Below, piece by piece: positions 7,301-62,016 of a stretch of DNA of 64,000 nt. This DNA comes from Paenibacillus alvei DSM 29. Its GTDB lineage: Bacteria; Bacillota; Bacilli; Paenibacillales; Paenibacillaceae. Both the position numbers and the translations under genes were made by a program. Position 1 is the first letter of the stretch; each line of letters begins with the position of its first letter. Below the pieces are notes generated by a model. The model was not told the DNA's origin. It saw nothing but the letters and a program-made list of their open reading frames with translations, and searched no databases. The stretch covers positions 62,001 through 126,000 of the forward strand of contig NZ_AMBZ01000012.1 in the NCBI RefSeq assembly GCF_000293805.1, in the 5' to 3' direction.

Positions 7301-9703
7301 GTACGTAATCGTAATTTTGTTTGCTGCATCATCGTATGCTACGGCGGTCTGTGTGCCGTCCGCATAGATTTCCGCAATCATCCGTCCCAGCTTATCATGC
7401 GTATACGTCGTTTCATTTCCGTTGCCATCGATGTATTTCGTCGGATCTCCTGTCAATGTGTTATACTCCATTCGGGATACGAGGCTGTCCGATGCTCCGT
7501 CGACATTCGTAACATTCACCGATTGCCTGTTCAAAAACATTCTTCCATATTCTTGCTGGACAACAGTATCCCGGGAGTCACCTTTGATCCGTATGGTTAT
7601 CGGGTTCCCCATCGAATCATATTCATAATTCAACTGCTGCACGACAGTCCCTTGATCACTCTTGGATTGAATTTGCAACAATCCGCCAGTACTTCGATCA
7701 TACTGATATTCCGTATTCAAGTTCATGCTTTGCCCTGTAGGGACAACGCTGCGGATAAGCCCCTTCTGCTTATTCGGAGATTCCAGCCGCCCATACTCAT
7801 AATGGCTTGTCGCGCCTAACGGATTCTTTTCAGAAACGATGTATCCCCAATTTTCCTTATCATACGTTCTGGTCGTAATTCGAGGTGCCGAGTTTCTCCC
7901 CTCGCTGCTTCGAACCTCTTCAATTCGAATGGGGTTCGGGTTTCTCATCCCCTTGTCATATTGATATCGGACAGTTCGGGCTTCATTCCCACGATCCGTA
8001 CGCGTCCTCGTTTCTTCCAAATATAGACTCGATGGGGCGTCACTCCCATTATATCGTTTGTCATACACATAGGTCGTTGTTTTTAGACCGTCCGTTACGT
8101 CCACCGAGAAAGAGTTATCTTGGAACTTCTCCCCTACATCACCGTTATTGAACGTGAAAACCAACTCATTTTGATGCGTTCCGGAGGTCGAACTATAGGA
8201 GTCCCGACGCGTTTTATAGCGAATCGTTTCCTCTTCCGCATACTCCCCGATTTTGCGGAATACCGTAGTATCGAATGCAAACCGGGTAATCGCTTTCGTT
8301 GGATGCTCGATTACGCTTAAAGCGATGGTATCGTTTCTCCCCCATTTCATTCTCATTAAATCGGATTGTCCATCCTTGCGAAAATCTTTATAAGCCCTGG
8401 CAAAGTTGAAGTAAAGGTCTTTCCACACGCTGTAATCGTATTTGGTGGATCGTCCCATCGGATCGATGACTTCCGTCAGCAGATCTTGTTCTAGGACGGA
8501 TTCTCCTTTAATAGAGGTCACTCTTTGCTTTTTATAGACAACTGTCCGACCTCCGCTTTCCACGACAATTGTATTATCGGGATTATACGTAAAAATCATA
8601 GCATTGGCACCGGTTCTTGAACTGTTTGACGTCACTACTATACCTAGTTCTGTACCGTAATAGATGAATTGAATATAATTCCCGTCTTTATCCTTTATTA
8701 GAATTAAGTCGCCCACGGCATTAAAATATTGCCGTACCCCTGTTTTATAATTGGCAAGCTCATACGCAGACTTTTCATTTCCTATCTTTACATTCTCTGA
8801 CTCGGAAAAGTTTAGATCATGAAAAGGATACCCCACAATATTAGATCCATCTATTCGATAAGTGCCCAAGCCGGAAATATAAAGGTACATCTGTCCGTCT
8901 ACTCTTTTGAAATAGGATATATCCCAAATCCACCCTTTTCCGAGCTTGAATCTGCCCTCTTCATCAGTTGATTGTTTCGTGATATTCTCCTTATAACTTT
9001 CCGGGTTGAAAGTAATATCGTTCTTTGCTCGAGAGCTGTCGTATACGCGTCGCAGCGCAAAATCTAAACCGTTGTATCCAGGCATGACCAGATCCGTTGT
9101 CTCCACGCGCAAGGAAGCGTCCACGGTCGAAATATGGTCGCTTTCCGAACCGACTGCATAAGGAGCTTGATCCAAACGAATCGGTGCACGCTGCAGCGCG
9201 ACCTTGTCGTATGGGCTATCGTCGCTCAGCGATCTCTTCGCTCGACGCAGGGTATTGTATACTAGATCGGTAACCGATAATGGATCTTCTCCTCCATATA
9301 CTTGATCCGTCACAGAGGTGGGGCCATATACGGCAGCAGTTACACTTGCATTATGAGCATGTAGGGGATCCGTAACTAGCGAGGGGTACTGCTGTTCCAT
9401 AAATTGCTCATACGATCCGCCCTGCTTTTGAAGAAGCAGCCCTTGATAAATATGATGAAGCGGGTAGCCTTTCACGATTTCATTGACCACCCAATCCCTT
9501 GCTACGCCAAACATTTCCGTAATCGAGGTGACGGTGATTAGCTCATCGGAGTCCGATAAGGTTTCATTTGCGCCGTATACGCTAGAGGTGACGGTCATAT
9601 TGGATGATCGGTTCGCAGACTTAGGAGAGTCTTGTGCTGATGTAATAGGTATACTTGTAAACAATAGCGTACATGCAAGAATCATTGACAACCATTTTTT
9701 CAA
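4361..9703 (-). CDS. Secreted RHS/YD-repeat polymorphic toxin with HINT domain and C-terminal toxin tip (1780 aa)
   Basis: Large secreted toxin of the WapA/RHS type. The start is TTG at 9701-9703 with AGGAGGAGG 8 bases upstream. Residues 1-23 are a signal peptide (MKKWLSMILA...PITSA). A DUF6531-like segment near residue 200 (MPGYNGLDFALRRVYDSSR) leads into the beta-shell. Many YD repeats (for example YEYDVLGRLIAV and YRYNLSGDMVEV) fill about residues 620-1360. The RHS core motif (about 1370-1433) includes YLRARWYDPSIGRF and ends in DPSGN. A HINT (intein-like protease) domain spans about 1551-1687: it starts CFTAGTKV, contains TTDNHPFWV, and ends YYVTDLGIWVHN. The last 89 residues (WWSKDTTGHADSAYK ... 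GNYIDGKHKSSTG) form the toxin tip. I think the tip resembles the Ntox21-like GKHK family, but I am not sure. The HINT domain probably frees the tip by autoproteolysis. Competing-strain inhibition is inferred from the family. Confidence 0.9.
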   Translation of the reverse strand: MKKWLSMILACTLLFTSIPITSAQDSPKSANRSSNMTVTSSVYGANETLSDSDELITVTSITEMFGVARDWVVNEIVKGYPLHHIYQGLLLQKQGGSYEQFMEQQYPSLVTDPLHAHNASVTAAVYGPTSVTDQVYGGEDPLSVTDLVYNTLRRAKRSLSDDSPYDKVALQRAPIRLDQAPYAVGSESDHISTVDASLRVETTDLVMPGYNGLDFALRRVYDSSRAKNDITFNPESYKENITKQSTDEEGRFKLGKGWIWDISYFKRVDGQMYLYISGLGTYRIDGSNIVGYPFHDLNFSESENVKIGNEKSAYELANYKTGVRQYFNAVGDLILIKDKDGNYIQFIYYGTELGIVVTSNSSRTGANAMIFTYNPDNTIVVESGGRTVVYKKQRVTSIKGESVLEQDLLTEVIDPMGRSTKYDYSVWKDLYFNFARAYKDFRKDGQSDLMRMKWGRNDTIALSVIEHPTKAITRFAFDTTVFRKIGEYAEEETIRYKTRRDSYSSTSGTHQNELVFTFNNGDVGEKFQDNSFSVDVTDGLKTTTYVYDKRYNGSDAPSSLYLEETRTRTDRGNEARTVRYQYDKGMRNPNPIRIEEVRSSEGRNSAPRITTRTYDKENWGYIVSEKNPLGATSHYEYGRLESPNKQKGLIRSVVPTGQSMNLNTEYQYDRSTGGLLQIQSKSDQGTVVQQLNYEYDSMGNPITIRIKGDSRDTVVQQEYGRMFLNRQSVNVTNVDGASDSLVSRMEYNTLTGDPTKYIDGNGNETTYTHDKLGRMIAEIYADGTQTAVAYDDAANKITITYPNGQQIEKWFDPLGNLIKETNGRGGVANHTYDRYGHMIRKGTFDGNWMEYEYDAWGRVTKENFIYGQNRIVYDDAANTKTAYDGSNNGIRETYDVMDRLIAKEEIKPSGQAVVAARYEYDLAGNVQTAYDGNHNATKYEYDVLGRLIAVTDAEGKTTRYRYNLSGDMVEVKYADGNTVEKRYDEIGRLLQQIDPNKQSKRFYYDANSNVAKSIDRKGQIQQFEYNNRNFLTAVVAPDERISYSYDATGKRTAMTDQTGTTAYAYYPTGELASITYPDQTRINYDYEVRGLRTEQTVAAGGYKITQRISHTNILPNPTSMAVLDGSDSQLTQFEYKYDGSYNRLVELKSAQGFLENYAYDGLNLAGIQQKQGDAPLGSYSYTYDNNRNIVAKNDNGAAYQFSYDPLNRIKTSSQFNEAYAYDQRDNRSTLQSDQVPNIKGASYAYDSRNRLTQVTTEDGKAVSYRYNGDNLMVERTEGGVTTRYYYDDRAKIVAEGKVEGNSVTITAAYVHDSNGKLLARQVPGQGMQYYVSNGHGDITEVRDAQGNVLNRYTYDIWGNPLVQEEQVPNIFRYSGEYWDEATNLQYLRARWYDPSIGRFVNEDTYEGELGNPLTLNLYTYVQNNPLKYIDPSGNRYIPSEMNSILKATMKITSTESRAYSYAYDLLSREYADVYDTNRFNYLFGLLTQTSAYKNSAGNADWARAELAKDYSKWHQEISFAEALASLGPVIGGIGKAREVGGKVRAIGGCNCFTAGTKVLTDDGEKNIEDIAVGDKVLAKDENNPDGELAYKEVTGLYRNQRDDIIKLNVGEQIIETTDNHPFWVEEKGWVFADELQVGDKLQKADGSNLIIDKVEFVNLDEPVTVYNFTVADYHTYYVTDLGIWVHNTNCKNTTTLWDIKTGADKKISYKFNGDTVTAYRDPKTGLWWSKDTTGHADSAYKVFKEAKGGKELHWVADSDKFGNYIDGKHKSSTGTVIKIK

Positions 9704-36534: not shown

Positions 36535-37039
36535 TTGTAAAAAATTCTACAGCCAACAACCTTATACATATGCACCTCTTCTAAACCCAAACATTTCCAA
36601 ATTTTTTCGAAATTTCATTCCATATTTCGTTCATGTCGTTTCTATTTGTGCGTCATCTTTACGTGTAACTATTATTTGTCTTTTCACTCCCTACTTTATA
36701 TCTTTACTTGCATATTTCATTAACAACCATTCTCCCCGTATGTGTTTCTAACAATATTGCTCCACTATCCCTTCGACTCAGTGCCCAAATGCGCTTTTCC
36801 CTAAAATTACTCATGTACATTTCATTACTACCGATCAAGTACACTGATTTAATCTTAAAATTTATATTTCAACTATTGAAATAAGAACATATATTCCATA
36901 TAATCAATACAGGAACATTAGTTCCCATATATAATCTCTCTAAATATTATCAATATACATAGATCAAAAATTCATTTCACCTAATTAAAATAATCATCAT
37001 CTCATGCATCATTTTTGTCTATATCTTAGGAGAATCGCT
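36535..37039. other. AT-rich stretch without a gene
   Basis: Both strands are very AT-rich and carry many stops. I see no coding signal, RNA gene or clear repeat. It is probably the left flank of the transposase-like gene at 37040, but no inverted repeat end could be recognised. Confidence 0.5.
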
Positions 37040-37924
37040 ATGAGAACAAACCTTATAGATCCTTCGTGCTCTCATCTCAAGAAGTTATTGCATAATGAAG
37101 ACGCCTGCACTTCTTTTTTATATACATTGAAATGGCCAAAAGGCTTTGTATGTCCGCGCTGCCAGCACCAACAAGCATGTACCATTTCAACACGCAGGCT
37201 TCCTTTATATGAATGCCGGGCTTGTCATTATCAGGCTTCCTTAACCGTTGGTACCGTTATGGAAGGTAGTCGAACACCCCTGCAGAAATGGTTTACTGCA
37301 TTATGGCACCTTTCGCGTCCTCATTGCAGCCTGAACGCCGTGCAGCTCAGCGCGATCATCCAAGTTACGTATAAAACAGCCTGGTCAATGCTGCATAAAA
37401 TACGAACCGCTATTAACCGTGCGGATAATGCTCGCCCTTTACACGGTGATGTACGAGGCCTGCTGGCTTTTTACGGATATCATCCGATCAGTCCATTCAA
37501 AGAGCGACAGCACCCTGTAATTGTTGCGCATTCCGTCACCCTAAATGGTTCCACAAGTGCACTTAAAATGAAAATGACTAGTCTTGCTCGACCAGATCAC
37601 AAAATACTCTCCTATGTTGAACACCAAGCATTTATTAATACACATGTTGCTGCTTCTTCTATGGAACCTACTATTAATCGATATTTTTATAGAATTAAAC
37701 GAAAGGATCGTTTGTATCAATCGTCTAAACAAGTTTGGCGTTGGCTGAATGAAACGTTTCACGGAATTGGCTCAAAATATCTACAGCTATATTTGGACGA
37801 GTATTGTTTTCGTTATAATATTTCGTATATGTATAAATCTGCTTCGGAGTTGTTCTGCCAATTCTGTAGGCCTCTTTTCACATCGAGTTCAATATCAATC
37901 CCCAAGCTGAAACGTTGTGCTTAA
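37040..37924 (+). CDS. IS1595/ISXO2-like transposase-derived protein (294 aa)
   Basis: The N-terminus has a zinc ribbon (Cys38-x2-Cys41 ... Cys59-x2-Cys62 in CPRCQHQQACT and ECRACHYQASLTVGT) and the following IS1595-type helix block MEGSRTPLQKWFTALWHLSR, QLSAIIQVTYKTAWSMLHKI. The C-terminal part has HVAASSMEPTINRYFYRIKR and WRWLNETFHGIGSKYL and LYLDEYCFRYN, which match the IS1595 end. In active members the first catalytic Asp lies in a V-E-V-D-E-x-Y-F-G-G block. Here the equivalent reads LHGDVRGLLAFYGYHP, without the usual DE and GG, so the enzyme may be inactive or repurposed. I start at the ATG at 37040 with AGGAG 7 bases upstream. No terminal repeats or target duplication are seen. Confidence 0.75.
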   Translation: MRTNLIDPSCSHLKKLLHNEDACTSFLYTLKWPKGFVCPRCQHQQACTISTRRLPLYECRACHYQASLTVGTVMEGSRTPLQKWFTALWHLSRPHCSLNAVQLSAIIQVTYKTAWSMLHKIRTAINRADNARPLHGDVRGLLAFYGYHPISPFKERQHPVIVAHSVTLNGSTSALKMKMTSLARPDHKILSYVEHQAFINTHVAASSMEPTINRYFYRIKRKDRLYQSSKQVWRWLNETFHGIGSKYLQLYLDEYCFRYNISYMYKSASELFCQFCRPLFTSSSISIPKLKRCA

Positions 37925-38060: not shown

Positions 38061-38180
38061 TTCACCAAACCCTTGACCATTTTATACCCAGCTCATAGTT
38101 TATTAATACACATTTTGTCTCCCGATTCGTTCACTCTACTTGGTTGCTGCTACATTTTTTATAGGATTTTATATGTTTTA

Positions 38181-38252
38181 CAGTCTTTTCAGTCTTTTCA
38201 GTCTTTTCAGTCTTTTCAGTCTTTTCAGTCTTTGCAGTCTTTGCAGTCTTTG
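38181..38252. repeat. 9-bp tandem repeat (8 copies)
   Basis: Five copies of CAGTCTTTT are followed by three of CAGTCTTTG. The one-base change is shared by a block of neighbours, as expected from slippage. Confidence 0.95.
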
Positions 38253-38295
38253 CAGCATTTACTGTTTTAACAGCCTTACTTCTTTTACTTCTTTC

Positions 38296-38340
38296 TTTTA
38301 CTGCTTTTACTGCTTTTACTGCTTTTACTGCTTTTACTGC
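38296..38340. repeat. 9-bp tandem repeat (5 copies)
   Basis: Five exact copies of TTTTACTGC. The unit differs from the 38181 repeat although both are 9 bp long. Confidence 0.95.
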
Positions 38341-38752
38341 CTTTCTTCTTTCTTTACTGCTTACTGCTTTTTGTAGCGCCTTTTACTGCTATTACTTTTA
38401 CGTTTTCAGACATTGCTGTACAGATTTATAAAGGCTATTGCAGCATTTACTACACGTTTTTATATTTAGATGTTCTAAGCATGCGAAACACTAAATTTCG
38501 CTGTGCTTTTCTTATGTCCATTCTTCGATGTTATTTATGACTCATTTATCCTTCTGCTCGCGTCAACAACAAGGCCTTTAACCGTTAATGCTTTGTCTTG
38601 CTTTTAAATTTGATTACGAAACGATAACTGACCCAATGGGATAGTGGTGAAAAGGGCAAAAAAGAACCTAGAAATTGGGGTGATTGAAAGAGGCTGTTTT
38701 TGCAAAACAACAATAAGTCTGAAGACACTTGGGTTGGGTAATGACATTTGAG

Positions 38753-38864
38753 CAACGATATTTGAATAACGATGATTTTGTAGCGATGTTTGAGTAGCGA
38801 TGTTTGAGTAGCGATGTTTGAGCAGCAATCTTTGAGCAGCAATCTTTGAATAGCAATCTTCGAG
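38753..38864. repeat. 14-bp tandem repeat (about 8 copies)
   Basis: Three exact copies of TAGCGATGTTTGAG (38781-38822) are followed by CAGCAATCTTTGAG, CAGCAATCTTTGAA and TAGCAATCTTCGAG. Two diverged units precede them. Divergence grows away from the centre. Confidence 0.9.
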
Positions 38865-39003
38865 TAATGGCACTAAGCTAATAGGTCTTTTCCTATATTG
38901 GATTGTTAAATCTTGTAGGACTGTCCCTTTGAATATGGTAATATAAAGGAGCTTTAGTGTTGTTTTGTTTCCCTATTGTCGTAGAAGGAGAGTTGCTTAA
39001 TCG

Positions 39004-39309
39004 ATGGAAACTATCCAATGGGTGCTGATTATCTTGATTTGTATGACATCAGGATTGTCTGTGTATTTCAGCTTTCGTTCAAGACGTGAGCAGGCTACGG
39101 CACTTCGTGGCTTGTATGCGGCTAAAATGAATATTTGTATGGGATTTATGTTGTTGTTTATCGCATCAATTCAAATTTTCATGTTCACAGCATCGACCGT
39201 AAGAGTTATTGTAGGGGCTGTATTGCTCGTAATCGGACTGTTCAATTTATTCGCAGGAATACGGAACCACAGTCATTATCAAGCCATTTATTCAGCAGGT
39301 AAAAAATAA
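39004..39309 (+). CDS. ytpI: YtpI family membrane protein (101 aa)
   Basis: Three hydrophobic segments: about 5-20 (WVLIILICMTSGLSVYFSF), 42-60 (MNICMGFMLLFIASIQIFMF) and 68-86 (VIVGAVLLVIGLFNLFAGI). The match is to YtpI, found beside ytoI in Bacillus. No enzymatic motif is visible; function is unknown. AAGGAGAG lies 11 bases upstream of the ATG. It is convergent with ytoI and shares a bidirectional terminator. Confidence 0.82.
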   Translation: METIQWVLIILICMTSGLSVYFSFRSRREQATALRGLYAAKMNICMGFMLLFIASIQIFMFTASTVRVIVGAVLLVIGLFNLFAGIRNHSHYQAIYSAGKK

Positions 39310-41005: not shown

Positions 41006-43684
41006 TCATCCTGAAGCTACATTAGATGCGACGGCTGTTTTTTCTTTTTTCACCAGCTTGCGATAGAATAATTGGAACGATACGCTGCTCGCTGTCAGCG
41101 CCAATGCAATATATACCGATAGAAATCCAACATTCATCCAAACATAGCTCATATCTCCTAATGAGATTACACCGCGGAAGGCCCGGATCGTGTAGGTCAT
41201 CGGCAGCCATGGGTGAAGCATTTGGAAAAATGGCGGCGTCAATTCAATCGGGAAAGTACCAGCCGTTGATGACAACTGTAGGACAAGCAGGATGATAATA
41301 ATAAACCGGCCTACATTGCCAAATGTCGTTATGAAAAATTGAATCAGAGCAAAGAAGGTCAAGCTGGTCGTCAAGCATACTAGAAAGAACATTGGAAGAT
41401 TCGTTACAGGCAGCTTAATGACCGTCAGAACGACTGTACCGCAAATAATCACTTGTAGCATGCTCTCGACGGTCATGAAACCAAATTTACTGACCATCCA
41501 CGCCATTCCGGACGGTGGTCTCGCGCTTGTTTCTTTCAACGGATAAACCATAGAGAACATAAGCGCACCCACAAAGAAGCCAAGCGACAGGAAATAAGGC
41601 GCCATTCCGACTCCATAGGTAGTCACATCATGATTCTGCAGCTTGTCGCTGCCAACCGGCGATGATATCATCTCGTACGTTTTGTCGGTAGGGTTTTGAG
41701 TCGCCTTTTGCGCTCCCTCTCGAAGCTTGTCGCGCAATTCAGCCCCGCCGTTCATCAATCGCTGTTGACCATCCAAAAGCATTGCAAATCCATTGTTGAT
41801 GGAGGCCTTCGCCTTATCCACTTGATTCAGCATATCGCTCATCTTCTGGAACATGATCTTCTGTATATGCCCCCCTGCCTCATCCAGCTTCATATCAGCC
41901 AAATTATGCAGCATGTCGCGTGCCATTGGCTCTAGCGAATTTACTTTGTCATCTGCCGCCGTATGCAGCTTCTTCGTAATTTCCGGAGCCAAGCGGTTTA
42001 GCTCCTCATTTACTTTGTGATGAATGCCGTTCACAACTTTTGGCTCGTATTGCTTCCACTTTTCGTCGACCAGTGTATGCAGCTTATCCACAAGCTGCTT
42101 CGATTTCTGCTGGTACATATTGTCCGCTAGCTCATGCGCCTTATCCCGCAGTTGAGGAGCCAGCTCATTCGCCTTCATCAGCACCATACGATTGGCCAAT
42201 GCACGAATTTGAGGAAAGACCTCACTAAACTTCTGATCTGCTGCCTCGTGCAGCTTCTTAACGAGCGAGCTCCCTACCTTGCTTAGCTCTCGATCTGCAA
42301 GCTCGGTAAGATCCTGCTTCACCTTCTCCTTCAACGCCAACAATTGTTTACCGTTCAGCCGGTTCTCCACCTTTGTTCGCACATCCACAAGCTTTTTCTT
42401 GAGCTCATCCCAAGGTGCTTTCATGTTAGGCGGGATTTGATCTTCAAATGGCTTGAGCTTCTCTTCAAGCATTTTCAGATCCTCTTGGATCTTGTTCATT
42501 TCATCCTTGCCCCGCTGAATTGCACCGTCAAAAATAGCATCAACCTTCTCATTGATATACCGGTGAATAGAGGAACGAATGGTACTGTCCAGCTTGCTGT
42601 ATTCATTGTCGATGATAGTATGCATCTTGGCACGGGCTGCAGGCTCCATCTCCGTAAGCGAATCATTTAGCTCAGTGCTTATCTTTCCGAGCACCTTGTT
42701 TAAATTTGCATCGTAAGCCTGATCAATTTCCCGATGCATGTTCTCTCGAATTTGCTCGCCATACTGCTCAGCCTGCTCGTCGATTTGTTGATGCACTTTT
42801 TCCTTCGCCGGCATCGATTTCGAACGTATGAGTTCATCAATTTTGGTATGTAGCGAATCGTGTACAATATCGTAGTATTTATCCGATTGTGCATCAATTT
42901 CCCGATGAATCTTATCCATCATCTTCGGCTTGTTGTTACGGATCGCTGCATCGATCTCTTTATGAATCATCTTATCAAGCTTTTCTTTGTTATCTTCCAG
43001 AGCGCGTTCGACCAATGTTCCAGCCTGCGAAGTTTTGGAATCCACCTTAGCATTCAGTTCATCTCTGAACTTCTCAATACCTTCCCCAAGCTTGCCTAGC
43101 CCCTGCTCGATTTGATTTGCACCTTCACTTGCCGCATATAGCCCATCCGCTACTTTGTCAAGTGCGTTGAACATTTGCTCTACATAGGTTTCCGTAACCT
43201 TTTGCGACAATTCAGCCTTTATATTCTGTACAACTTTATCTGCAATTTGACCAGAAATAAAATTATAGCTGCTGTTCTCTGTATAAATCAGATTCATCGG
43301 TTGCGGATGTGGATCAAGGATCGTCGTTGCATTATGAGACATTTGTTCTGGTATGCGAATCATCAAGTAGAACTTGTTCTCACTCAACCCCCGTTCCCCT
43401 TCCTGCCTGCTTACGAAATGAAAGGCAACCTTGTCATTATCATGAAGCTTCTCGATCAATTCCCGACCAATCGCAATCTCCTTTCCTTCGTACATCACCG
43501 GTCGATCTTCATTGACGACAGCGACAGGCAGATGCTTGACATTACTATACGGATCCCAATTCGCAACCAAATATACACCGCAGTACAGCAGCGGGATGAT
43601 AAGCAGACCCAAAACAGGCACAAGCACCTCTTTTGTTCGGATATTCGCGACGAATTCCGACCAGAAAAAACGAATACTTTTCAC
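41006..43684 (-). CDS. YhgE/Pip-type membrane protein with long helical 19-residue repeats (892 aa)
   Basis: The ends match the YhgE/Pip family: one N-terminal membrane helix (about 20-40, VLVPVLGLLIIPLLYCGVYL) followed by the conserved domain (LPVAVVNEDRPV, LIEKLHDNDKVAFHFVSR), and an ABC-2-like C-terminus with five or more helices from about residue 690 to 875 (GVGMAPYFLSLGFFVGALMF, TSSTAGTFPIEL-like text, HPWLPMTYTIRAFRG). The 500 residues between are all helical and not like the usual family middle. They contain two arrays of a 19-residue repeat with a conserved His and, four residues later, Asp (see the repeat entry). Start is GTG at 43682-43684 after AAGGAGGTGA. YhgE proteins may act in export of WXG100-type or phage-related proteins, but the role of this one is unknown. 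Confidence 0.85.
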   Translation of the reverse strand: MKSIRFFWSEFVANIRTKEVLVPVLGLLIIPLLYCGVYLVANWDPYSNVKHLPVAVVNEDRPVMYEGKEIAIGRELIEKLHDNDKVAFHFVSRQEGERGLSENKFYLMIRIPEQMSHNATTILDPHPQPMNLIYTENSSYNFISGQIADKVVQNIKAELSQKVTETYVEQMFNALDKVADGLYAASEGANQIEQGLGKLGEGIEKFRDELNAKVDSKTSQAGTLVERALEDNKEKLDKMIHKEIDAAIRNNKPKMMDKIHREIDAQSDKYYDIVHDSLHTKIDELIRSKSMPAKEKVHQQIDEQAEQYGEQIRENMHREIDQAYDANLNKVLGKISTELNDSLTEMEPAARAKMHTIIDNEYSKLDSTIRSSIHRYINEKVDAIFDGAIQRGKDEMNKIQEDLKMLEEKLKPFEDQIPPNMKAPWDELKKKLVDVRTKVENRLNGKQLLALKEKVKQDLTELADRELSKVGSSLVKKLHEAADQKFSEVFPQIRALANRMVLMKANELAPQLRDKAHELADNMYQQKSKQLVDKLHTLVDEKWKQYEPKVVNGIHHKVNEELNRLAPEITKKLHTAADDKVNSLEPMARDMLHNLADMKLDEAGGHIQKIMFQKMSDMLNQVDKAKASINNGFAMLLDGQQRLMNGGAELRDKLREGAQKATQNPTDKTYEMISSPVGSDKLQNHDVTTYGVGMAPYFLSLGFFVGALMFSMVYPLKETSARPPSGMAWMVSKFGFMTVESMLQVIICGTVVLTVIKLPVTNLPMFFLVCLTTSLTFFALIQFFITTFGNVGRFIIIILLVLQLSSTAGTFPIELTPPFFQMLHPWLPMTYTIRAFRGVISLGDMSYVWMNVGFLSVYIALALTASSVSFQLFYRKLVKKEKTAVASNVASG
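41843..42967 (-). repeat. Two arrays of a 19-residue His-x3-Asp repeat in the YhgE-like protein
   Basis: In array one (about residues 240-392) His occurs at 241, 260, 279, 298, 317, 355 and 374, spaced exactly 19 apart, with Ser at 336. Asp or Asn stands four residues after each (245, 264, 283, 302, 321, 340, 359, 378). In array two (about 459-614) His occurs at 479, 517, 536, 555, 574 and 593, again 19 apart, with Asp or Asn at 464, 483, 521, 540, 559, 578 and 597. A hydrophobic residue precedes each His. The regularity was read by direct counting along the translated sequence. Confidence 0.9.
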
Positions 43685-43979: not shown

Positions 43980-44285
43980 TTATTTCAATCTGGCAGGCTG
44001 ACCTTTCAAACGCGCCTCAAGGCGATTATACTTCTCGCGCTTGATTTCCCGCAGACGCTGCTCCATTTCCTCGTCCACACGCAGCAAGCGATGCAGATGA
44101 GCAGCCACGATCAGCAAGGCAAACGCAATCCATACTACTCCAAACGTAGAGGAAGGCGTCCAGCCCTCCTTAAAGTTCAACGTAGGCAGTACATAAATCA
44201 GCATAGCTACAACAAGTATGATGGATATTACGTGTTTCCAGTTGTTCCGTGGTTTCGCAGTTGCCTTATTTTGTTCCGTTTTCAT
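43980..44285 (-). CDS. Small two-helix membrane protein (101 aa)
   Basis: Two membrane helices (about 18-34, VISIILVVAMLIYVLPTL, and 46-64, FGVVWIAFALLIVAAHLH) are separated by a short loop. A basic coiled-coil tail follows (EMEQRLREIKREKYNRLEAR). I do not recognise the family. It lies between the YhgE-like gene and yheA on the same strand, ends at its own terminator, and has a good GGAGCG ribosome site before the ATG at 44283-44285. The fold fits a small membrane anchor or regulator, but no function can be assigned. Confidence 0.65.
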   Translation of the reverse strand: MKTEQNKATAKPRNNWKHVISIILVVAMLIYVLPTLNFKEGWTPSSTFGVVWIAFALLIVAAHLHRLLRVDEEMEQRLREIKREKYNRLEARLKGQPARLK

Positions 44286-44810: not shown

Positions 44811-45989
44811 TTATCCGACAGCTAATAAAACAAAGGACTGCACTAACCCGATAATACCACCAAGCAGCGCCCCTAACCATGTAATGGCCCGGAATTCCTT
44901 GCCTGACACGCTTAAAATAATCGTCTCCAGACGTTCAATTGGGAACTGTTCCACTTGTGAACGCACGACATCCTCTAGACGTGCTGCCCGCACAATAGAA
45001 TCCAGATTACGATCAAGCAAGCCAAAGGCAGCCTTCACCACACTGGGGACATATTCCTTCCATACGGATTCATATTTTCCGACTAATTGGCCTGGTTGAA
45101 CTGCACCGAGGCGCTCAATTTGCTTAGGCCACTGAATGAATTCAGCAGCATGACCTACGATATAATCAAGCGAATTCGCCTCTTCTGGAAGCTCTGCCCA
45201 AGAGCGTACGAGTTGGGAAGGCGTTTCTTGAAGCCATTCATTAAGTTTGGTCAACATGAAACTTGCAACAGCTGCACGGACCTTCGGAGAACGCAGCTGC
45301 TCAACAAGAATAGGCGTCATTTTCGTTACCAGCTTATCCTCATCCACGAATATCGCTGCCATCGCGCCAAAAAATCCGGAAGCGCGATCAATAACCTCCT
45401 TAGCCAGCTTCGTCATGAGCAGCTGTCCCTGAAACGATGTTAACTCCTTCTCGAATGAAGACAGCATCGCAGCAGCTGCTTTATCCGCCCATTTTGCAGA
45501 AGATTGCTCCCAGCCTGCCGGCAACCATTCCACAAGAGGCCGCTCATCCCAGCCTTTCCTCTCCAGCCACTTCTTAACCCCATTGCTCGTCCATTCATTC
45601 AATCGACTCGCAGAATAATCCCGAATCTCATCCCACTCCTTGTCCGGGAACAATTGTGCTGCCCACTCTTTTACCGTTCTGCTGTCTTCAGACCAATCAC
45701 GTGTCATCCGAAGCACCGCTTGAACGGCATTCTCGCGGGCTTCTGGACGATTCAACATCGTACGAAGACCGTCACTTGTCACCAAGTATTCGGATACAAC
45801 CTCGCCAAAGGAAGCCGCAATATCATCCTTCCTTTTCGGAATCAACCCTGGCGTGAATGGAACTCGCCAGCGCCCAATGTATATAGCATTCCGTGGATGA
45901 AAGAGCATTTTAATCGCAAAATGGTTCGTTACCCCGCCTACGATTGCTGCGACGGCAACACTAAAACTAATAAATAGCCAAACCGGCAT
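44811..45989 (-). CDS. yheB: DUF445 family membrane protein YheB (392 aa)
   Basis: DUF445 protein with one N-terminal hydrophobic helix (PVWLFISFSVAVAAIVGGVT), then NHFAIKMLFHPRNAIYIGRW and FTPGLIPKRKDDIAASFGEV, which is the family signature. The body is helical, and two hydrophobic segments near the end (WLGALLGGIIGLVQSFVLLA) close the protein. YheB lies beside yheC/yheD in B. subtilis. I start at the second ATG of ATGAGTATG, where AGGAGGGG lies 9 bases away; the first is only 2-3 bases from it. Function unknown. It is divergent from the first yhe ATP-grasp gene. Confidence 0.85.
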   Translation of the reverse strand: MPVWLFISFSVAVAAIVGGVTNHFAIKMLFHPRNAIYIGRWRVPFTPGLIPKRKDDIAASFGEVVSEYLVTSDGLRTMLNRPEARENAVQAVLRMTRDWSEDSRTVKEWAAQLFPDKEWDEIRDYSASRLNEWTSNGVKKWLERKGWDERPLVEWLPAGWEQSSAKWADKAAAAMLSSFEKELTSFQGQLLMTKLAKEVIDRASGFFGAMAAIFVDEDKLVTKMTPILVEQLRSPKVRAAVASFMLTKLNEWLQETPSQLVRSWAELPEEANSLDYIVGHAAEFIQWPKQIERLGAVQPGQLVGKYESVWKEYVPSVVKAAFGLLDRNLDSIVRAARLEDVVRSQVEQFPIERLETIILSVSGKEFRAITWLGALLGGIIGLVQSFVLLAVG

Positions 45990-46141
45990 ACTCATCCCCT
46001 CCTGTTTTTTCCTTCTCTAGGTCAATCACCAAGGGAAATATGTCCTCATATGATGAATTAACGTATACGTTCTATCTGTATCGACCCATGCAGATGGAAT
46101 CGTATGAATGACTGCAAGTTGTTGTTGGAAGGAGAACCTCC

Positions 46142-47509
46142 ATGTCTAAATCAAAAGCGACGCTCCAGTTGATCAGTTCCAGCATCTTGCAAGACGATGT
46201 GCTCGTGTTGGGAGAGGCCTACGCCAAGCTGTGGAAGGTTCCTGTCAATCAGCCGTTGACGGTAAAGTTCGGTTCCTTTAGGCAGCGCATAACAGTAATA
46301 TCCGCCACCCGCTTCGATGGGCTGAGAATGAGTCATTCTCTTGCACGGAAGATGGGACTTATTAACGGCCTGTCATTGCGTGCCGCCTACAAAACGTCTA
46401 ACCAAACCCTGAGCCTTGGACCGCTAATTGGTGTATTAATAAGCCGCGATCATCCTAGTATGCCTGATAAGCCATTCGGGTCAATAACATCCTTTTGCAA
46501 AGAGTTGGTCGATGCATGCCAGCTACAAGGGGCGTGGGTGTGCTTCTTCACACCCGATCATATTCAAGATCTCCACAACGTAAGAGCGTGGGTTCATAGC
46601 AATGGCAGCTGGCAGCGAGTAACGATGCCAATTCCAGACATTATTAACAACCGATTGACATCCCGCAAGCTGGAGAACAAACCTAGCGTACAGCATTTTA
46701 TGAAAGAAGTAAAATCACGTTATCAGTCTGTCGTCTTTAACGAAAAATTTCTGGATAAAACAGAAGTGTTCGAGGCGTTACGGCCTCACCCCGAGTTTGC
46801 AAAATATTTACCAGAATCTTATTCACTCCGCAGCTACTCCACCTTAAAAAACATGTGCAGCCGTTACTCAACGGTATTCTTAAAACCAGCTCGCGGCAGC
46901 CTCGGGAAAGGAATAATTCGCATTACCCGCATGCCAGACCATAGCTATCAAGCCTTGTATACCACCTTGAACGGAACAAAGCGCCAGCAATTCAGCAGTT
47001 TGGTAAAGATATATTCCAGCCTATCCGGCAAGATCAAGTCGAATCGCTATCAAATTCAACAGGGTCTGACCCTTATTGATCATGGCAAGCGACCCGTCGA
47101 TTTCCGCGCACTCGTACAGAAAAATGCATCTGGAAAATGGACCATCACCTCCATCGTCGCACGCATCGCAAGTAATCAACACTTTGTATCTAATCTGGCA
47201 CGCGGCGGTTCGCTTAGCACCGTAAGGGAAGCGATTCATCGTTCCAATTTGCCTACTTCGGTGAAAAGCGATGTAAGTGCGCGGCTGAAGCGGGCAGCAC
47301 TTGACATCGCCCAAGGAATAGATACACACATCCCCGCTCATTTCGGCGAGCTAGGGATTGATCTGGCTGTTGATAATTCTGGTAAAGTATGGTTGCTTGA
47401 AGTCAATTCTAAGCCATCCAAAAACGACAACACCCCATTAAGCGATAACAAAATCCGTCCGTCTGTACGTAAAATCGTTGACTACGCTCGCTTTCTGACC
47501 GGAATCTAA
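46142..47509 (+). CDS. YheD-like ATP-grasp protein, spore coat associated (first of five, 455 aa)
   Basis: The N-terminal about 100 residues (WKVPVNQPLTVKFGSFRQRI, SLGPLIGVLISRDHPSMP) form a small beta domain typical of YheD. The C-terminal half is an ATP-grasp fold: glycine loop KPARGSLGKGIIRI, the FRALVQKN strand, and the metal-binding end ELGIDLAVDNSGKVWLLEVN with SKPSK. YheC/YheD proteins are coat-associated in spores of Bacillus; their reaction is not known, but ATP-grasp enzymes usually ligate a carboxylate to an amine. It opens a run of five related genes on the plus strand, with short or overlapping junctions. GAAGGAGAACC precedes the ATG. Confidence 0.88.
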   Translation: MSKSKATLQLISSSILQDDVLVLGEAYAKLWKVPVNQPLTVKFGSFRQRITVISATRFDGLRMSHSLARKMGLINGLSLRAAYKTSNQTLSLGPLIGVLISRDHPSMPDKPFGSITSFCKELVDACQLQGAWVCFFTPDHIQDLHNVRAWVHSNGSWQRVTMPIPDIINNRLTSRKLENKPSVQHFMKEVKSRYQSVVFNEKFLDKTEVFEALRPHPEFAKYLPESYSLRSYSTLKNMCSRYSTVFLKPARGSLGKGIIRITRMPDHSYQALYTTLNGTKRQQFSSLVKIYSSLSGKIKSNRYQIQQGLTLIDHGKRPVDFRALVQKNASGKWTITSIVARIASNQHFVSNLARGGSLSTVREAIHRSNLPTSVKSDVSARLKRAALDIAQGIDTHIPAHFGELGIDLAVDNSGKVWLLEVNSKPSKNDNTPLSDNKIRPSVRKIVDYARFLTGI

Positions 47510-47522
47510 GGAGGTGGCAGCA

Positions 47523-48683
47523 ATGAACGCTTCAGAAGCTTCATATCCGACACTTGGCGTTCTGCAATGCGAAGCGAAAGGCGTGCTGCCATTCACGGAG
47601 GCAGCGTATTGCCGCAGATTATCCATAGCCGGACGCAAGCACGGCATTCATGTTATGGTGTTCTCCCCGCTATGGATCCATTGGAATAACCATACCGTAC
47701 ATGCATTTGTATATACCAAATCGGGGTGGGAACGCCAAAATCTCCCCCTGCCTGCGCTCGCTTACGACAGGTGCACCTACACCGATAACCGCCAATACAG
47801 AAAAACACGGGCAGCGATAGCTCGCATGATGGAGCAAGCAAATGTAAGGCTGCTAGGTGTCGGCTTACGAGGCAAATGGGAGATCTATCGTTCCTTGCGT
47901 AATGACTCCTACCTATCTCCCATACTGCCCCCCACTCGGCTGTTCACAGGCGTCGCCAACCTCGTTGATCAGTTGAGTCGTTTTCAAGAAGGACTATTTC
48001 TGAAGCCGCATGGTGGAACTCACGGGAAATCTACACTCCATATTCACCTCCACCGCAACAGCGAGGAGGAGACAGGTTCGAAACTCATATCCTCTCCGCT
48101 GGAACTGCGAGGACGAGATGACAACAACGAGGCGATCCATCATCTTTTCCCTTGTCCTCAAGAGGGATTCGCCTGGATTGAACGGTTTGTAGGCAATCGA
48201 AAGTTTATCATTCAACCCTATTTATCATTGGCCACCCAAGAGGGAGAGCCGTTTGACATACGCGTTCTCATGCAAAAAGACGAAAATGGGCGCTGGGATT
48301 TCACAGGTATGGCTGCACGAATAGGCCAGCCTAACAGCGTCACTTCGAACCTGCACGGGGGCGGTCGAGCCGTCCCGGTCATTCCGTTCTTGGCAAGCCA
48401 ATTTGAACCGAATCACGGACAGCGGCTTATCAAACAGCTACGTCAATATAGCAAGTACATTCCACCGCTTCTGGAGGCTCAGTATGGGCGAATAAGCGAG
48501 ATTGGCCTCGACTTCGGTATCGACCTCGATGCTCGCCTCTGGCTGCTTGAAGTCAACTCCAAACCTGGCAGATCTGTCTTCAGACAAACGGGTGAGCACG
48601 AAGCCGCTTTAAAATCAGTGGAAAATCCGATTTTGTACGCACGCCACATGTTGGTTCGGTACCTTAGGAGGGTCAGTTCATGA
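47523..48683 (+). CDS. YheC-like ATP-grasp protein (second of five, 386 aa)
   Basis: A shorter YheC/YheD relative that begins with PTLGVLQCEAKGVLPFTEAA and lacks the extra N-terminal beta domain of its neighbours. ATP-grasp motifs: KPHGGTHGKSTLHI, PFDIRVLMQKDENG, and FGIDLDARLWLLEVN followed by SKPGRSVF. The glycine loop reads GGTHGKS rather than GGSLGKG, a small change. The ATG at 47523-47525 has AAGGAGG 8 bases upstream; a GTG at 47514 overlaps that site. It starts 14 bases after the first gene and overlaps the third by four bases (ATGA). Confidence 0.87.
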   Translation: MNASEASYPTLGVLQCEAKGVLPFTEAAYCRRLSIAGRKHGIHVMVFSPLWIHWNNHTVHAFVYTKSGWERQNLPLPALAYDRCTYTDNRQYRKTRAAIARMMEQANVRLLGVGLRGKWEIYRSLRNDSYLSPILPPTRLFTGVANLVDQLSRFQEGLFLKPHGGTHGKSTLHIHLHRNSEEETGSKLISSPLELRGRDDNNEAIHHLFPCPQEGFAWIERFVGNRKFIIQPYLSLATQEGEPFDIRVLMQKDENGRWDFTGMAARIGQPNSVTSNLHGGGRAVPVIPFLASQFEPNHGQRLIKQLRQYSKYIPPLLEAQYGRISEIGLDFGIDLDARLWLLEVNSKPGRSVFRQTGEHEAALKSVENPILYARHMLVRYLRRVSS

Positions 48684-50056
48684 GTTTGACGGTATGCAAC
48701 GTCCATTTGACGCCAAATTCCGGTAAATTTTTATATGTCTCTAACTCGCTATTGAAAGAACTTAAGCTTACAGGCAAACGATCGGTAAAGCTTAGACTCG
48801 GCAAATCAGTCACTCCAGCATTGGTCAAACCGATCCGTAGGCCCGGCAAGCATCTCTACGTTACAGCTGGATTGCGTTCTTCAATTCGCGTCCCTAAGTC
48901 AGGATCCGTGCTTTTGTTTAGTGATTCAGAGGGTGATCTGCAGCTCGGCCCCCTGATAGGCATTATGTCAGACGGAGCTTCAAGATCTCCTGTGGCTCCA
49001 TTCGGTAACCGAACAGGATTCATTAGACAAATATTGCGAACAGGCAATAAAAAAGCTTATGTGTTCGCTTTTGCCCCACGCGATATCAATTGGCAAAACG
49101 AAACCGTGCTAGGCTACTTCCTTGGTCCTTCCGGAGGCTGGGTAAGACGAACCGTCCCGCTCCCCGACGTCGTATACAACCGCTTGCCAAGCAGGCGAGC
49201 CGAAACCTCTGGCACTTACAATATGATTCGGGAACGCTTCACCCGTAAGAAGATACCTTTTTTCAATTGGAGCTTCTTCAATAAATCAGATGTGTATGCC
49301 TTGCTGAAGGGTGAAATAGAAGCGAATCGATATGTACCGGAATCCGTTATGAATCCCTCAACCGATACAATACGCTCGATGCTGGAACGTCATCAATTTG
49401 CCTATTATAAGCCATCCGGCGGCAGCCTTGGAATCGGCATTTATCGACTTACCTACCTGCCTAAGAAAGGGTATTTTGCACGCTATACAACAAATGGAAA
49501 AAACGTACTGCTCCGCTTTCGAACCTTTGCCAGCCTGATGCGCATGCTGGAAGCAAGACATGGCCGCAACCTTCGCAGTTATGTGATTCAGCAAGGTGTT
49601 CGTTTAATTGAAATTGACGGATGTCCGATTGATTTCCGTTTCCATATGCATAAGAACGGAGACGATAAATGGGCGGTTGTCGGCATCGGTGCCAAAAAGG
49701 CAGGCAAGGGCAGTGTAACTACACATGTTAAAAATGGCGGCAAGCTGATGACCCCTTCGCAGGCACTTCAACGCGCCTTCGGGAACCGCTCAGACGAAGT
49801 CCTTGAGAAGGCGAAAAAGATTGCCATTATTTTGGCAGAAGCCATTGAACGCAATCATCCACATTTGCTGGGAGAGCTCGGATTCGATATCGGCATTGAT
49901 CGTGACGAGCATGTCTGGATGTTCGAAGCAAACGCCAAGCCTGGACGATCCATTTTTAAGCACCCTTCCCTTAAGAATGAAGGGCAAGCATCGATTGAAC
50001 ACATATTGGATCACTGCCTGTACCTAAGTAAATTCCGCAGGGGGGAGATCGTGTGA
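48680..50056 (+). CDS. YheD-like ATP-grasp protein (third of five, 458 aa)
   Basis: Like the first gene it has the N-terminal beta domain (KRSVKLRLGKSVTPALVKPI, LQLGPLIGIMSDGASRS) and then ATP-grasp motifs: KPSGGSLGIGIYRL, PIDFRFHMHKNGDD, and GFDIGIDRDEHVWMFEANAK with PGRSIF. It starts inside the stop codon of the second gene (ATGA overlap) after TAGGAGGG. Alternation of YheD-like and YheC-like genes in one run suggests repeated duplication of a two-gene unit. Confidence 0.88.
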   Translation: MSLTVCNVHLTPNSGKFLYVSNSLLKELKLTGKRSVKLRLGKSVTPALVKPIRRPGKHLYVTAGLRSSIRVPKSGSVLLFSDSEGDLQLGPLIGIMSDGASRSPVAPFGNRTGFIRQILRTGNKKAYVFAFAPRDINWQNETVLGYFLGPSGGWVRRTVPLPDVVYNRLPSRRAETSGTYNMIRERFTRKKIPFFNWSFFNKSDVYALLKGEIEANRYVPESVMNPSTDTIRSMLERHQFAYYKPSGGSLGIGIYRLTYLPKKGYFARYTTNGKNVLLRFRTFASLMRMLEARHGRNLRSYVIQQGVRLIEIDGCPIDFRFHMHKNGDDKWAVVGIGAKKAGKGSVTTHVKNGGKLMTPSQALQRAFGNRSDEVLEKAKKIAIILAEAIERNHPHLLGELGFDIGIDRDEHVWMFEANAKPGRSIFKHPSLKNEGQASIEHILDHCLYLSKFRRGEIV

Positions 50057-51162
50057 GCGGCAAAGAGAAAGCAACACCTACGCCGGTCGTCGCCATATTA
50101 ACAATGGATGATGCCAAAGAGCATTTCCGCGGCAATCGCGATAATTTTGCCGACATCATTCAAACTGGAAGAGGCATGGGATTTATCGTCTATCTCCTTA
50201 CCGTAAAAGACTTGAAGCTTAGTGCCAAGCGGGTCATCGGATATACGATTAACGACAACAATATGTGGAAGCAGGAGTGGTTCCCGCTTCCGCATGTCAT
50301 TTACAATCGCATTCCTCTTCGAGAAGATGAAAGTCTGCCTACTGTGCGCAGCAAAATCAAGGAAGTGCTCGCCCATCCAACTATACGCATATTTAACCCC
50401 TACTTTTTCAATAAATGGAATTTATTTGAATGGTTGAAAAAATCCAAGATCACGAAAAAGTATATTCCATCAACGAAGCGGCTAAAAACATCCAGTACGT
50501 TAGGAAAAATGTTGCATAAGCATCCATATTTGTTCCTGAAGCCGGAATCCGGCAAGGCGGGTGCCGGCATTATGACCCTCCGCGTGAACCATACCAAAGC
50601 ACTGAAATACCGCCTTAAGATTCAGGATAAAAAGAAAAGTCTATCCTACAAGTGTGCAACGATTACGAAGCTGTGGAGTCGGATACAGAAGCAGGCAGGA
50701 ATGCATGACTATATCGTGCAACAAGGCATTCCACTAGCTGCCAGCAATCGACGTCCCTTCGATCTTCGAGTCCTTATTCAGAAAAATGGCCGGGGACATT
50801 GGGAAATTACAGGCGTTGGCGCGCGTGTCGCCGGTTCATCTAGTATTACGACACATGTACCGCGCGGCGGAAGCATAGACGATCCAGAAAAGCTCCTCAT
50901 TTCCGTGTTCGGTACTGGACAGTCCAAGCGCATCATGACTCGAGCCAGACATGCTGCACTTATTATTGCAAGGCAGATTGAGCGCGCCTCAGGTCATTTA
51001 CATGGCGAGATGTCAATGGACTTAGGTGTCGATGCAAGCGGCAGCATCTGGTTCTTCGAGGCAAACGCAAAGCCAATGAAGTTCGATGAGCCTCATATTC
51101 GGCATCGTTCGCTTGAGCGCATATTTCAATACTGCCAATATCTTGCAAAGCAGAGCGGATGA
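50053..51162 (+). CDS. YheC-like ATP-grasp protein (fourth of five, 369 aa)
   Basis: Short form without the N-terminal beta domain; starts PVVAILTMDDAKEHFRGNRD. ATP-grasp motifs: KPESGKAGAGIMTL, PFDLRVLIQKNGRG, and SMDLGVDASGSIWFFEANAK followed by PMKFD. The glycine loop is GKAGAG. The GTG at 50053 overlaps the stop of the third gene by four bases, and GGGGGAGA precedes it. The C-terminus differs most from the others, so its substrate may differ. Confidence 0.85.
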   Translation: MSGKEKATPTPVVAILTMDDAKEHFRGNRDNFADIIQTGRGMGFIVYLLTVKDLKLSAKRVIGYTINDNNMWKQEWFPLPHVIYNRIPLREDESLPTVRSKIKEVLAHPTIRIFNPYFFNKWNLFEWLKKSKITKKYIPSTKRLKTSSTLGKMLHKHPYLFLKPESGKAGAGIMTLRVNHTKALKYRLKIQDKKKSLSYKCATITKLWSRIQKQAGMHDYIVQQGIPLAASNRRPFDLRVLIQKNGRGHWEITGVGARVAGSSSITTHVPRGGSIDDPEKLLISVFGTGQSKRIMTRARHAALIIARQIERASGHLHGEMSMDLGVDASGSIWFFEANAKPMKFDEPHIRHRSLERIFQYCQYLAKQSG

Positions 51163-51187
51163 TGGACAGGAAGAAAGGTGAGTACGC

Positions 51188-52347
51188 TTGAGTCAACCTA
51201 CACTTGGTATATTGACATTGTATTTGAATGAACGGCGTCAGCTCGAAGAACGGCCCGTGTATCAGAAGATGATTGCAGCTGGCAAAAAAGTGGGGCTCGA
51301 GGTATATGTGTTCACTCCACAGGATGTTGATGAACAGCAGCGCCGCATCAACGCGATGTGCTACAATCCAGAGACAGGACGCTGGACTCGAAAATGGACT
51401 CGATTTCCCCACATGATATTCGACAGGTGCCGCATCCAAAATAGCTATCGCTTTAAGCAGCTTTGCCGCTTCCGCAACAAATACAAACATCTTCTGTTCT
51501 TGAATCGCCCTTTACGCAACAAGTGGACGATCCATCAAGTCTTATCAGGGGTAGCTTCCATTAAGCCACACCTCCCCAGCACTCGCTTATACCGTTCAAT
51601 TCAAGACTTGCAAAGCATGCTGCGCACAAACTCCCTAATTTACCTAAAACCTATCAACGGGACTGGAGGAAGGGGCATCCTGCGTATTGAACGTTCGCTG
51701 AGCAGTCCCTCCACCGTATTCGTTCAAGGCCGCGATCATCAACGGCGAATTATACAGCCACAGAAACTGACGCTTAACCAACTGGCCACGAAGCTGGCTG
51801 CATGGAGAGCCGTAGATCGTTACTTGGTGCAGCAAGGGATATCCTTGAAGCTGTCGAATGGGCGCGTACACGATTATCGCATGCTCGTGCAGAAGAACGG
51901 TAACGGGAAGTGGGAAGTGACCGGCTGTGCGGGTAGAGTGGGGGCCAATCGGAGCATCACTTCGAATCTCCACGGAGGCGGGAAAGCTGTACGTATGGAT
52001 GAGCTGCTTAAAAAATGGATTGGTGACGAGCAGCGCATTGCCGAAGTGAAGGAAGAAGCAGAAAGAATCAGCCTTGAAATTGCTCAATATCTTGAAGAAA
52101 ATATGGCGCTCTATGTGAATTGGCGCTGGATCTCGCCATTGATCGCAAGGGCCACATATGGCTGCTTGAGGTGAACCCAAAACCTGCACGAGAAGTATTC
52201 AGTCGGATTGGAGATCGGGAGACGTATCGGGCCGCTATCTCCCGGCCAATTGAATACGCAGCCTGGCTGCATCGCCAAAAAGGCAAGCGTCATGGGGATG
52301 TGACAATATCAATCGTAGAAGAAACCGATCCTTCAACTTCAGAGTAA
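51188..52347 (+). pseudogene. YheC-like ATP-grasp gene (fifth of five), frameshifted near its end
   Basis: The first part, from TTG at 51188 with AAAGGTGAG upstream, reads LGILTLYLNERRQLEERP, then KPINGTGGRGILRI and VHDYRMLVQKNGNG, and runs into a wrong frame at about 52115, ending WRWISPLIARATYGCLR at 52174. The correct end lies in another frame from 52120 to 52347: LDLAIDRKGHIWLLEVNPKP and AREVF. Adding one G at 52115 (TATGGTGAATTGG in place of TATGTGAATTGG) restores YGELALDLAID, as in the other four genes. The metal-binding Glu-Asn would be lost in the truncated product. Sequencing error or real mutation cannot be told apart here. A terminator follows at 52416. Confidence 0.85.
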
Positions 52348-61193: not shown

Positions 61194-62016
61194 CTACATG
61201 ATGAAGTACCAGAATAACGCTGCCAAAACGAAGCGATAAATTGCGAAATGGCGAAGTTTAATCCGCTGAATATGCTTGAGGAAGACAACAACAATTACAT
61301 AGGCTACCACAAAAGATACTAAAAACCGAGCACAAAAAAGCGAGAATATCGAGGGTAAACATCTTATAATTGTCAAGCAGCTCATATCCACTCGCTGCAC
61401 ACATAATCGGGATCGCGATGAGAAAGGAAAAATCCGCAGAAGCTCGGTAGCTAACGCCGCTCATCATACCTCCCGACATCGTAGATCCTGAGCGGGAGAA
61501 GCCTGGCCACAACACAGACAGAATTTGAAACAAACCAATAGAAAAGGCTTGCTTATAGCTAATATCATCCATCGTCTTCGCTGATGGCTCTCTGCGAGAA
61601 CCGTACCATTCCGCGAACCACATAAATGCGCCTCCGACGACAAGCGCCAACAATACCGTTGAGGTGCTGTCAAACAACTGCTTAATATGATCTTTTGCTA
61701 GGTAGGCCACACCTAACGCGGGAGCTATTCCAATGGCGACATGGAGCAGATTCAATCGTTGACAGACGACATTCCCTTGCTGAACGGTTCGTTTGCGCAA
61801 GCCCAACATCCCCATGATCCGATCCCAATATACGACCATCATGGCCAGTGTCGCGCCTAGCTGAATGACGATCTCGAACGTTTTAAGCCAGCTAGCCTGC
61901 TCCTCAATCCCCATTAGCTTCGTTGTTAATATCATATGGCCTGTCGAGGATACAGGTATGAATTCAGTTAATCCTTCAACAATGCCAAGAACAACTGCAA
62001 CGATGACATAGAACAT
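61194..62016 (-). pseudogene. uppP: Undecaprenyl-diphosphatase UppP/BacA, two frameshifts near its end
   Basis: UppP dephosphorylates undecaprenyl diphosphate so the carrier can be reused in wall synthesis. The active-site blocks EGLTEFIPVSSTGHM and WPGFSRSGSTMSGGMM are intact. The frame continues to FTLDILAFLC at about 61340 and then departs from the family; the correct tail (VSFVVAYVIVVVFLKHIQRI, ending YRFVLAALFWYFIM) is in another frame from 61194 to about 61325. Two T runs on the coding strand (six T at 61334-61339 and five T at 61321-61325) each seem one base short: restoring both gives AFFVLGFLVSFVVA, the expected text. The double defect at runs suggests sequencing error. GAGGG lies before the ATG. 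Confidence 0.85.

Follow-up and report, generated by a model that had tools for sequence, protein, structure and literature searches.

In the YhgE/Pip family of membrane proteins the middle of the chain is commonly built of XXXLXXG heptads, which are not required for membership. The family includes phage receptors (Pip, YjaE and YueB), and YjaE is predicted to be a 360 Å rod, a dimer in which each monomer is folded back on itself (PMC12474359). An ectodomain fragment of EsaA is a dimer with 70% helix (PMC6891578). Coiled-coil theory, as set out in PMC4786415 (2016), associates a hydrophobic period of 19/5 with strong right-handed supercoiling, expects an upper limit for coiled coils near 3.9 residues per turn and gives a local 19/5 stretch of YadA as the most extreme case; PMC10425188 lists “nonadecades” as a non-canonical coiled-coil class. 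We analyzed a stretch of 64,000 nucleotides of Paenibacillus alvei DSM 29 (contig NZ_AMBZ01000012.1, positions 62,001 to 126,000, hereafter the window; genome of 6,834,602 bases). One of its genes encodes an 892-residue membrane protein of the YhgE/Pip family whose middle consists of two arrays of a 19-residue His/Asp repeat. Judging from its sequence, this middle probably forms a long outward-pointing rod wound opposite to the rods of its relatives.

Both ends of the protein carry the domains of the family: TIGR03061 matches residues 11-172 with 179.4 bits (cut-off 96.15) and TIGR03062 residues 671-870 with 207.2 bits (cut-off 102.2), while Pfam ABC2_membrane_3 matches residues 648-866 (94.2 bits). 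Membrane-like stretches lie, by hydropathy, at about 11-44 and then, several of them, beyond residue 690; the long middle is therefore one stretch between them. XXXLXXG heptads do not run through the whole of it, as only residues 177-202 match TIGR03057 (19.8 bits, cut-off 18.6). A GGAGG-like site precedes the start codon in most of the orthologue starts inspected.

The 19-residue His repeat is confirmed. The arrays span the central ~400 residues, and 13 of the 16 repeat sites are His at a spacing of exactly 19 residues: 241, 260, 279, 298, 317, 355 and 374 in array 1, where site 336 is Ser, and 479, 517, 536, 555, 574 and 593 in array 2, where sites 498 and 612 are Asn and Phe respectively. 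The preliminary description of this DNA had proposed two arrays of about eight units, each with His at exact 19-residue steps. The steps stand; the number of His in array 2 has to be corrected from eight to six. The Asp or Asn that it placed four residues further on is found after all 13 in-phase His. Just three off-phase His (275, 556 and 606) occur in residues 195-625. The self-match of this region at lag 19 is 73, compared with a maximum of 53 at any lag from 3 to 79 in 2000 shuffles. Nine pairs of His are 19 residues apart, compared with at most 6 at any distance from 5 to 59 in 20,000 random placements.

The hydrophobic residues follow the same repeat. By Fourier analysis their period is 3.80 (19/5) in array 1 (power 34.8) and in array 2 (power 41.5), the best of 500 shuffles reaching 10.6 and 13.6 respectively. 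Taken with the shuffles of self-match and His spacing, this excludes a chance periodicity. Three sequences analyzed singly gave periods of 3.795-3.805, and all 13 segments of 57 residues gave 3.755-3.835. A hydrophobic period of 3.8 is thus held over several units, as in a nonadecad coiled coil. Residues 176-215 have a period of 3.525 and the linker 396-450 one of 3.61. Of the 42 frames of at least 200 codons in the window, this open reading frame (ORF) alone gives a strong 3.8 signal (37.7; next 9.2).

That second-highest signal belongs to a yheB/DUF445-like neighbour (44811-45995, minus strand), whose residues 41-240 show a weak tendency to 3.80-3.84 (power at most 8.5); its remainder does not. 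Seven of 15 array segments match Pfam DUF445 weakly, and direct comparison with this neighbour shows no relation (hhalign probability 0.5%, E 0.11).

None of 29 other YhgE-family frames has its peak at 3.77-3.83; 28 peak at 3.47-3.54 and one, a piece of a 1006-residue paralogue, at 3.63. These are frames of 641-1099 residues from loci up to L058, without L001, L002, L003, L007, the 14 orthologue loci and identical copies; L004, L009 and L011 are pieces of the one 1006-residue protein, and several others are close relatives. Within this sample the statement that usual YhgE proteins have heptads at this place holds. The 1006-residue protein is the third YhgE paralogue of the P. alvei genome; near it, on contig C6 (587333-589374; L005, L008, L010), a second paralogue is split into frames of 255 and 530 residues. 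Among the matches listed in a literature search on YhgE/Pip, EsaA/YueB and 19-residue or right-handed coiled coils, no title or beginning of an abstract describes this repeat; the full texts may mention it.

Full-length orthologues are present in 13 of the 19 genomes searched in the genus, counting the P. alvei genome; the remaining six yielded nothing but partial matches to other YhgE-type sequences. In the family sample of 394 genomes, a profile of the arrays (E <= 1e-10) has matches in 18: 13 belong to the same genus and the other five are spread over three further genera. It matches 3 of 296 genomes in the order sample, all of the same genus, and 1 of 398 in the class sample, which is the P. 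alvei genome itself. Conservation of the repeat in homologues is therefore true of the orthologues and not of most YhgE-family proteins, which lack it. Two other types of match were discarded. The frame of L002, the second locus of a contig scan and by appearance presumably a pyruvate:ferredoxin oxidoreductase-type protein, shares a DEKWKQYE peptide by chance and has no 19-residue lag or clear 3.8 period; of 96 stretches on viral contigs that matched a pattern, none was confirmed as a relative.

In what follows the repeat and entropy statistics refer to 15 orthologues and the counts of indels, His sites, register and unit composition to 18; these are sequences, not independent events. L001 (Paenibacillus sp. 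NAIST15-1) has 89% protein identity. Residues 176-670 are free of indels except for one residue at 445, absent in four orthologues. The arrays of L081-L083 are just 23-29% identical to those of the window, yet their length is unchanged. The commonest residues give the consensus x-x-[VIL]-R-x-K-[IL]-H-x-E-I-D for array 1 and P-x-[LV]-x-x-K-L-H-x-x-A-D-x-K-[LFYW]-x-E-L for array 2. Eight sites (279, 317, 355, 479, 517, 536, 555 and 593) are His in all orthologues; the others are His in 16 (260, 298 and 574), 11 (241), nine (374), five (612), four (336) and one (498). Among residue types in 228-620, His has the lowest mean entropy, 0.53 bit compared with 0.54 for Trp and 0.57 for Pro; 9 of 16 His are invariant. 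Sites at which His predominates carry 22 other residues, namely Asn (16), Ile (four), Ser (one) and Gln (one). The position four residues after the His sites of array 2 is variously D, E or N across orthologues, and Ala once. The single one-residue indel and the common period of the two arrays (3.80, where the relatives have about 3.5) give good support at the sequence level to an unusual bundle or superhelix, as the preliminary description had suggested. Because of this difference in period, a left-handed heptad rod appears to have been exchanged for a strongly right-handed one, with a heptad stretch kept at its base.

On balance we favour an extracytoplasmic antiparallel helical hairpin with its turn near residue 417, which would dimerise into a right-handed 19/5 rod spanning the wall and carrying His rungs. 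Array 1 would run outward from the membrane, the chain would reverse near residue 417 and array 2 would lead back. Pairing of the hairpin with a second copy would give a rod of ~32 nm (computed for ~213 residues per strand), left-handed at its base and right-handed over the arrays, where a 19/5 supercoil makes one turn per ~81 residues (computed). On a 19/5 helical wheel the hydrophobic stripe would be flanked on one side by His (position 8) and Asp (position 12) and on the other by Lys (position 6; also 14 in array 2). The His of the two strands would meet as rungs ~28 Å apart, namely H241-H593, H260-H574, H279-H555, H298-H536, H317-H517 and H355-H479, and the His-free sites S336 and N498 would be opposed. 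These rungs might fix the register of a strained coil via His-Asp/Asn hydrogen bonds, possibly in a pH- or metal-sensitive manner. By analogy with YueB/YjaE, the rod would pass through the cell wall with the tip at its end and couple this tip to the ABC-2-type membrane domain. It may also be exposed to phages, since the homologues Pip, YjaE and YueB serve as their receptors.

A model of the fragment 300-540 (mean predicted local distance difference test, pLDDT, 83.1; predicted TM score, pTM, 0.51; four of five models at pLDDT 77-83) has helices at 301-414, 419-442 and 445-539, which run through P348, P491 and P510 and are unbroken except at the tip. Foldseek returned no match to this fragment at E <= 0.001. 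Its top rows include segments of Smc and of chemoreceptors, which we take to be antiparallel hairpins; the best rows have TM scores of 0.38-0.44 (5nnv_D, E 4.1e-3, 0.39/0.38; 3g67_B, 0.40/0.44) and others go down to 0.13. With the turn centred at ~417, residue i faces residue 834-i (i+j = 834), which yields the six His-His pairs. Over all i+j from 796 to 875 the His-His count is highest at 834, with 5.3 per sequence; the charge-pairing score has its maximum of 13.7 at 837 and is positive throughout 833-838. In a parametric four-helix bundle with i+j = 832-838, the beta-carbons (CB) of paired His are 5.5-7.7 Å apart at one neighbour interface; the distance is 15-17 Å at the other interface and 10-11 Å in a two-stranded coil.

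Several observations weigh against a smooth hairpin in this register. One of the five fragment models has a pLDDT of 48.4, and the full-length model is poor (pLDDT 46.9, pTM 0.29): its helices break at 288-292 and 584-587, which are unit borders, as well as at 417-418 and 443-444, and we set it aside with its Foldseek search as uninformative. Both models were built from only two sequences, 85-89% identical, and predict helix ends, not handedness or His packing. The His-His count drops only to 4.6 at i+j = 853 (872: 4.3; 815: 3.7) and the charge-pairing score is noisy (814: 9.9, 802: 9.4 and 796: 8.9 vs 13.7). In the parametric model the pairs left at i+j = 815 or 853 have these same distances, so that the model does not discriminate between registers. 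Site 374, a His, faces 460, which is never His, and in L042 and L043 there is no joint change of sites 336 and 498. When the mean unit of array 1 is analyzed by itself, its peak lies at 3.955 and not at 3.80. Finally, Pro within the arrays is confined to unit positions 1-2, with position 1 being Pro in 103 of 126 unit instances of array 2 (28 of 144 in array 1). In array 1, S/T/D/N/G amount to 46-49% at positions 19 and 1, where Gly is also most frequent, whereas outward positions other than the unit borders carry little Pro or Gly. This pattern suggests a regular kink or break at each border instead of a smooth coil.

The Pro of array 2 would suit a variant of the hairpin in which the helices stay straight: 18 residues would form five undistorted turns and one extra residue at each Pro would be taken up as a kink or pi-bulge, giving the 19/5 period with little supercoil. 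A local pi-turn can indeed absorb one-residue insertions (PMC4786415), but the 3.80 period is found equally in array 1, which has few Pro at position 1, and we regard this variant as doubtful. If each border were instead a true turn, the 19-residue unit would be one helix of ~15 residues plus a turn and each array a compact alpha-alpha solenoid. The restriction of Pro to positions 1-2, the Gly of array 1, the two border breaks of the full-length model and the presence of Pro-punctuated apolipoproteins among the weak matches all point in this direction. We nevertheless consider a solenoid unlikely: loops would permit indels at the unit borders and the 18 orthologues have none, the more confident fragment model continues its helices through eight unit borders, and a heptad stretch lies ahead of array 1. 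In addition, the two arrays differ in consensus and nearly agree in their number of units, which would be expected if they pair as strands, and L042 is the only one of 15 orthologues in which lag 38 exceeds lag 19, so that two alternating helix types are not seen.

Metal binding would be an addition to the rod and not exclusive of it: the His-x3-Asp rungs would bind Zn, Ni, Cu or similar, and the rod would store or sense metal or be stapled by it. No residue type of the arrays is better conserved than His, and the short His-His distances of the modelled bundle make such sites possible. However, Asn can retain a hydrogen bond and is a poor metal ligand, and Asn being the main replacement of His, hydrogen bonding is favoured over obligatory metal binding. 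The residue four positions after the array-2 His varies, residues 228-620 of the window protein contain no Cys, and no metal-transport gene was noticed by eye in the ORF list of the window, in which no profile search for such genes was made. A metal ladder thus seems rather improbable to us. Still more speculative is a ladder of His-Asp rungs acting as a proton- or metal-switched lock in an extreme right-handed 19/5 coil (~150 residues per strand), a change of twist then signalling mechanically between the surface and the ABC-2-type domain. Identity with EsaA/YueB of the type VIIb secretion system (T7SSb) is very improbable. T7_esaA_Nterm does match the N-terminal domain (79.6 bits), and the protein is the best match of its genome (84.3 bits), which has an EssC; but both scores are under the curated cut-off of 122, EssC is encoded on contig C7 and not adjacent to this gene, which is on C16, and the neighbours here are presumably ytoI-, yheA- and yheB-like genes. 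We therefore rejected it.

Features of the YhgE/Pip-family gene and its product (positions in the window; residues of the protein)
Feature	Position	Strand	Basis or remark
Whole gene, YhgE/Pip-family, 892 residues	41006..43684	-	GTG start
YhgE/Pip N-terminal domain and first transmembrane segment (~15-44), residues 11-172	43169..43654	-	TIGR03061, hydropathy
XXXLXXG-type heptad base of the predicted outgoing strand, residues 176-215	43040..43159	-	hydrophobic period 3.525
Array 1, residues 234-385, eight 19-residue units (L-H-x-E-I-D), His sites 241-374	42530..42985	-	period 3.80
Putative tip and turn, residues 396-452	42329..42499	-	fragment model breaks 414/419 and 443-444; indel at 445
Array 2, residues 453-623, nine 19-residue units (P-x-L-x-x-K-L-H-x-x-A-D-x-K-[LFYW]), His 479 and 517-593	41816..42328	-	period 3.80
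Base of the predicted returning strand, residues 626-665, heptad-like by eye only (G-F-x-x-L-L-x-G ... L-x-x-G)	41690..41809	-	sequence, alignment
YhgE/Pip C-terminal ABC-2-type membrane domain, residues 671-870	41075..41674	-	TIGR03062, ABC2_membrane_3, hydropathy

The ytoI-like neighbour is kept in L001, L014-L016 and L020-L025; in L017-L019, L042 and L043 none of the tested neighbours lies within ~1.5 kb. Directly upstream of the gene, a small ORF (43980-44285, minus strand, 101 residues) resembles a membrane protein; it also stands beside the orthologue in L001, L014 and L022-L025. Further on, five consecutive similar ORFs (46142-52174, plus strand) are by appearance, we assume, ATP-grasp spore-coat-associated YheC/YheD paralogues, and the frame of the fifth (51188-52174) appears shifted near its end. 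A frame also appears shifted before the C-terminal end of the ORF at 61258-62016 (minus strand), presumably a uppP-like gene, whose membrane-protein-like sequence goes on in another frame. The ORF at 4361-9703 (minus strand) encodes a 1780-residue RHS/YD-repeat-like protein with a Hint-like segment, which by appearance we take to be a polymorphic toxin. Three DNA tandem repeats (a 9-mer x 8.8 at 38177-38255, a 9-mer-like unit x 8.6 at 38295-38371 and a 14-mer x 8.6 at 38746-38866) sit between the ORF 37004-37924 and the ORF at 39004, supposedly transposase-like and ytpI-like respectively.

Among known helical systems the apolipoprotein A/E repeats (PF01442) give a weak profile match of 36.1 bits. 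These are Pro-punctuated amphipathic helices with a period of 11/22 residues. The gathering cut-off being 90, we rejected homology and read the match as shared composition and helix pattern; hemagglutinin rows in the profile search were likewise read as coiled-coil noise. The cytoplasmic hairpin of chemoreceptors and the Smc coiled coil, which resemble the fragment 300-540 at the level of the Foldseek rows given above, are mostly heptad and left-handed.

Closer in period are the stalks of YadA and other trimeric autotransporters, which share the value 19/5, a local feature in YadA (PMC4786415); the source cited there for YadA refers in its title to a right- to left-handed transition. The present protein differs from them by its membrane topology, an antiparallel hairpin as we infer it, ~150-170 residues of 19/5 per strand, the border Pro and the conserved His. 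If the reading is right, a natural 19/5 array of 17 units, whose length does not vary and whose His ladder is mostly fixed, would mean that this period can build a whole rod, and it would show which residues are needed.

With the YhgE/Pip family (Pip, YjaE, YueB/EsaA), whose members include phage receptors and a secretion component, the protein shares both terminal domains, the N-terminal membrane segment, the large middle, the C-terminal membrane domain and, at the foot of the predicted outgoing strand, a stretch of heptads. It departs from them in the middle, where a 19-residue His/Asp array of period 3.80 stands in place of heptads of ~3.5. As the corresponding part of the relatives has the heptad period, this locus would amount to a natural experiment in which the stalk of a membrane protein has had its handedness reversed.

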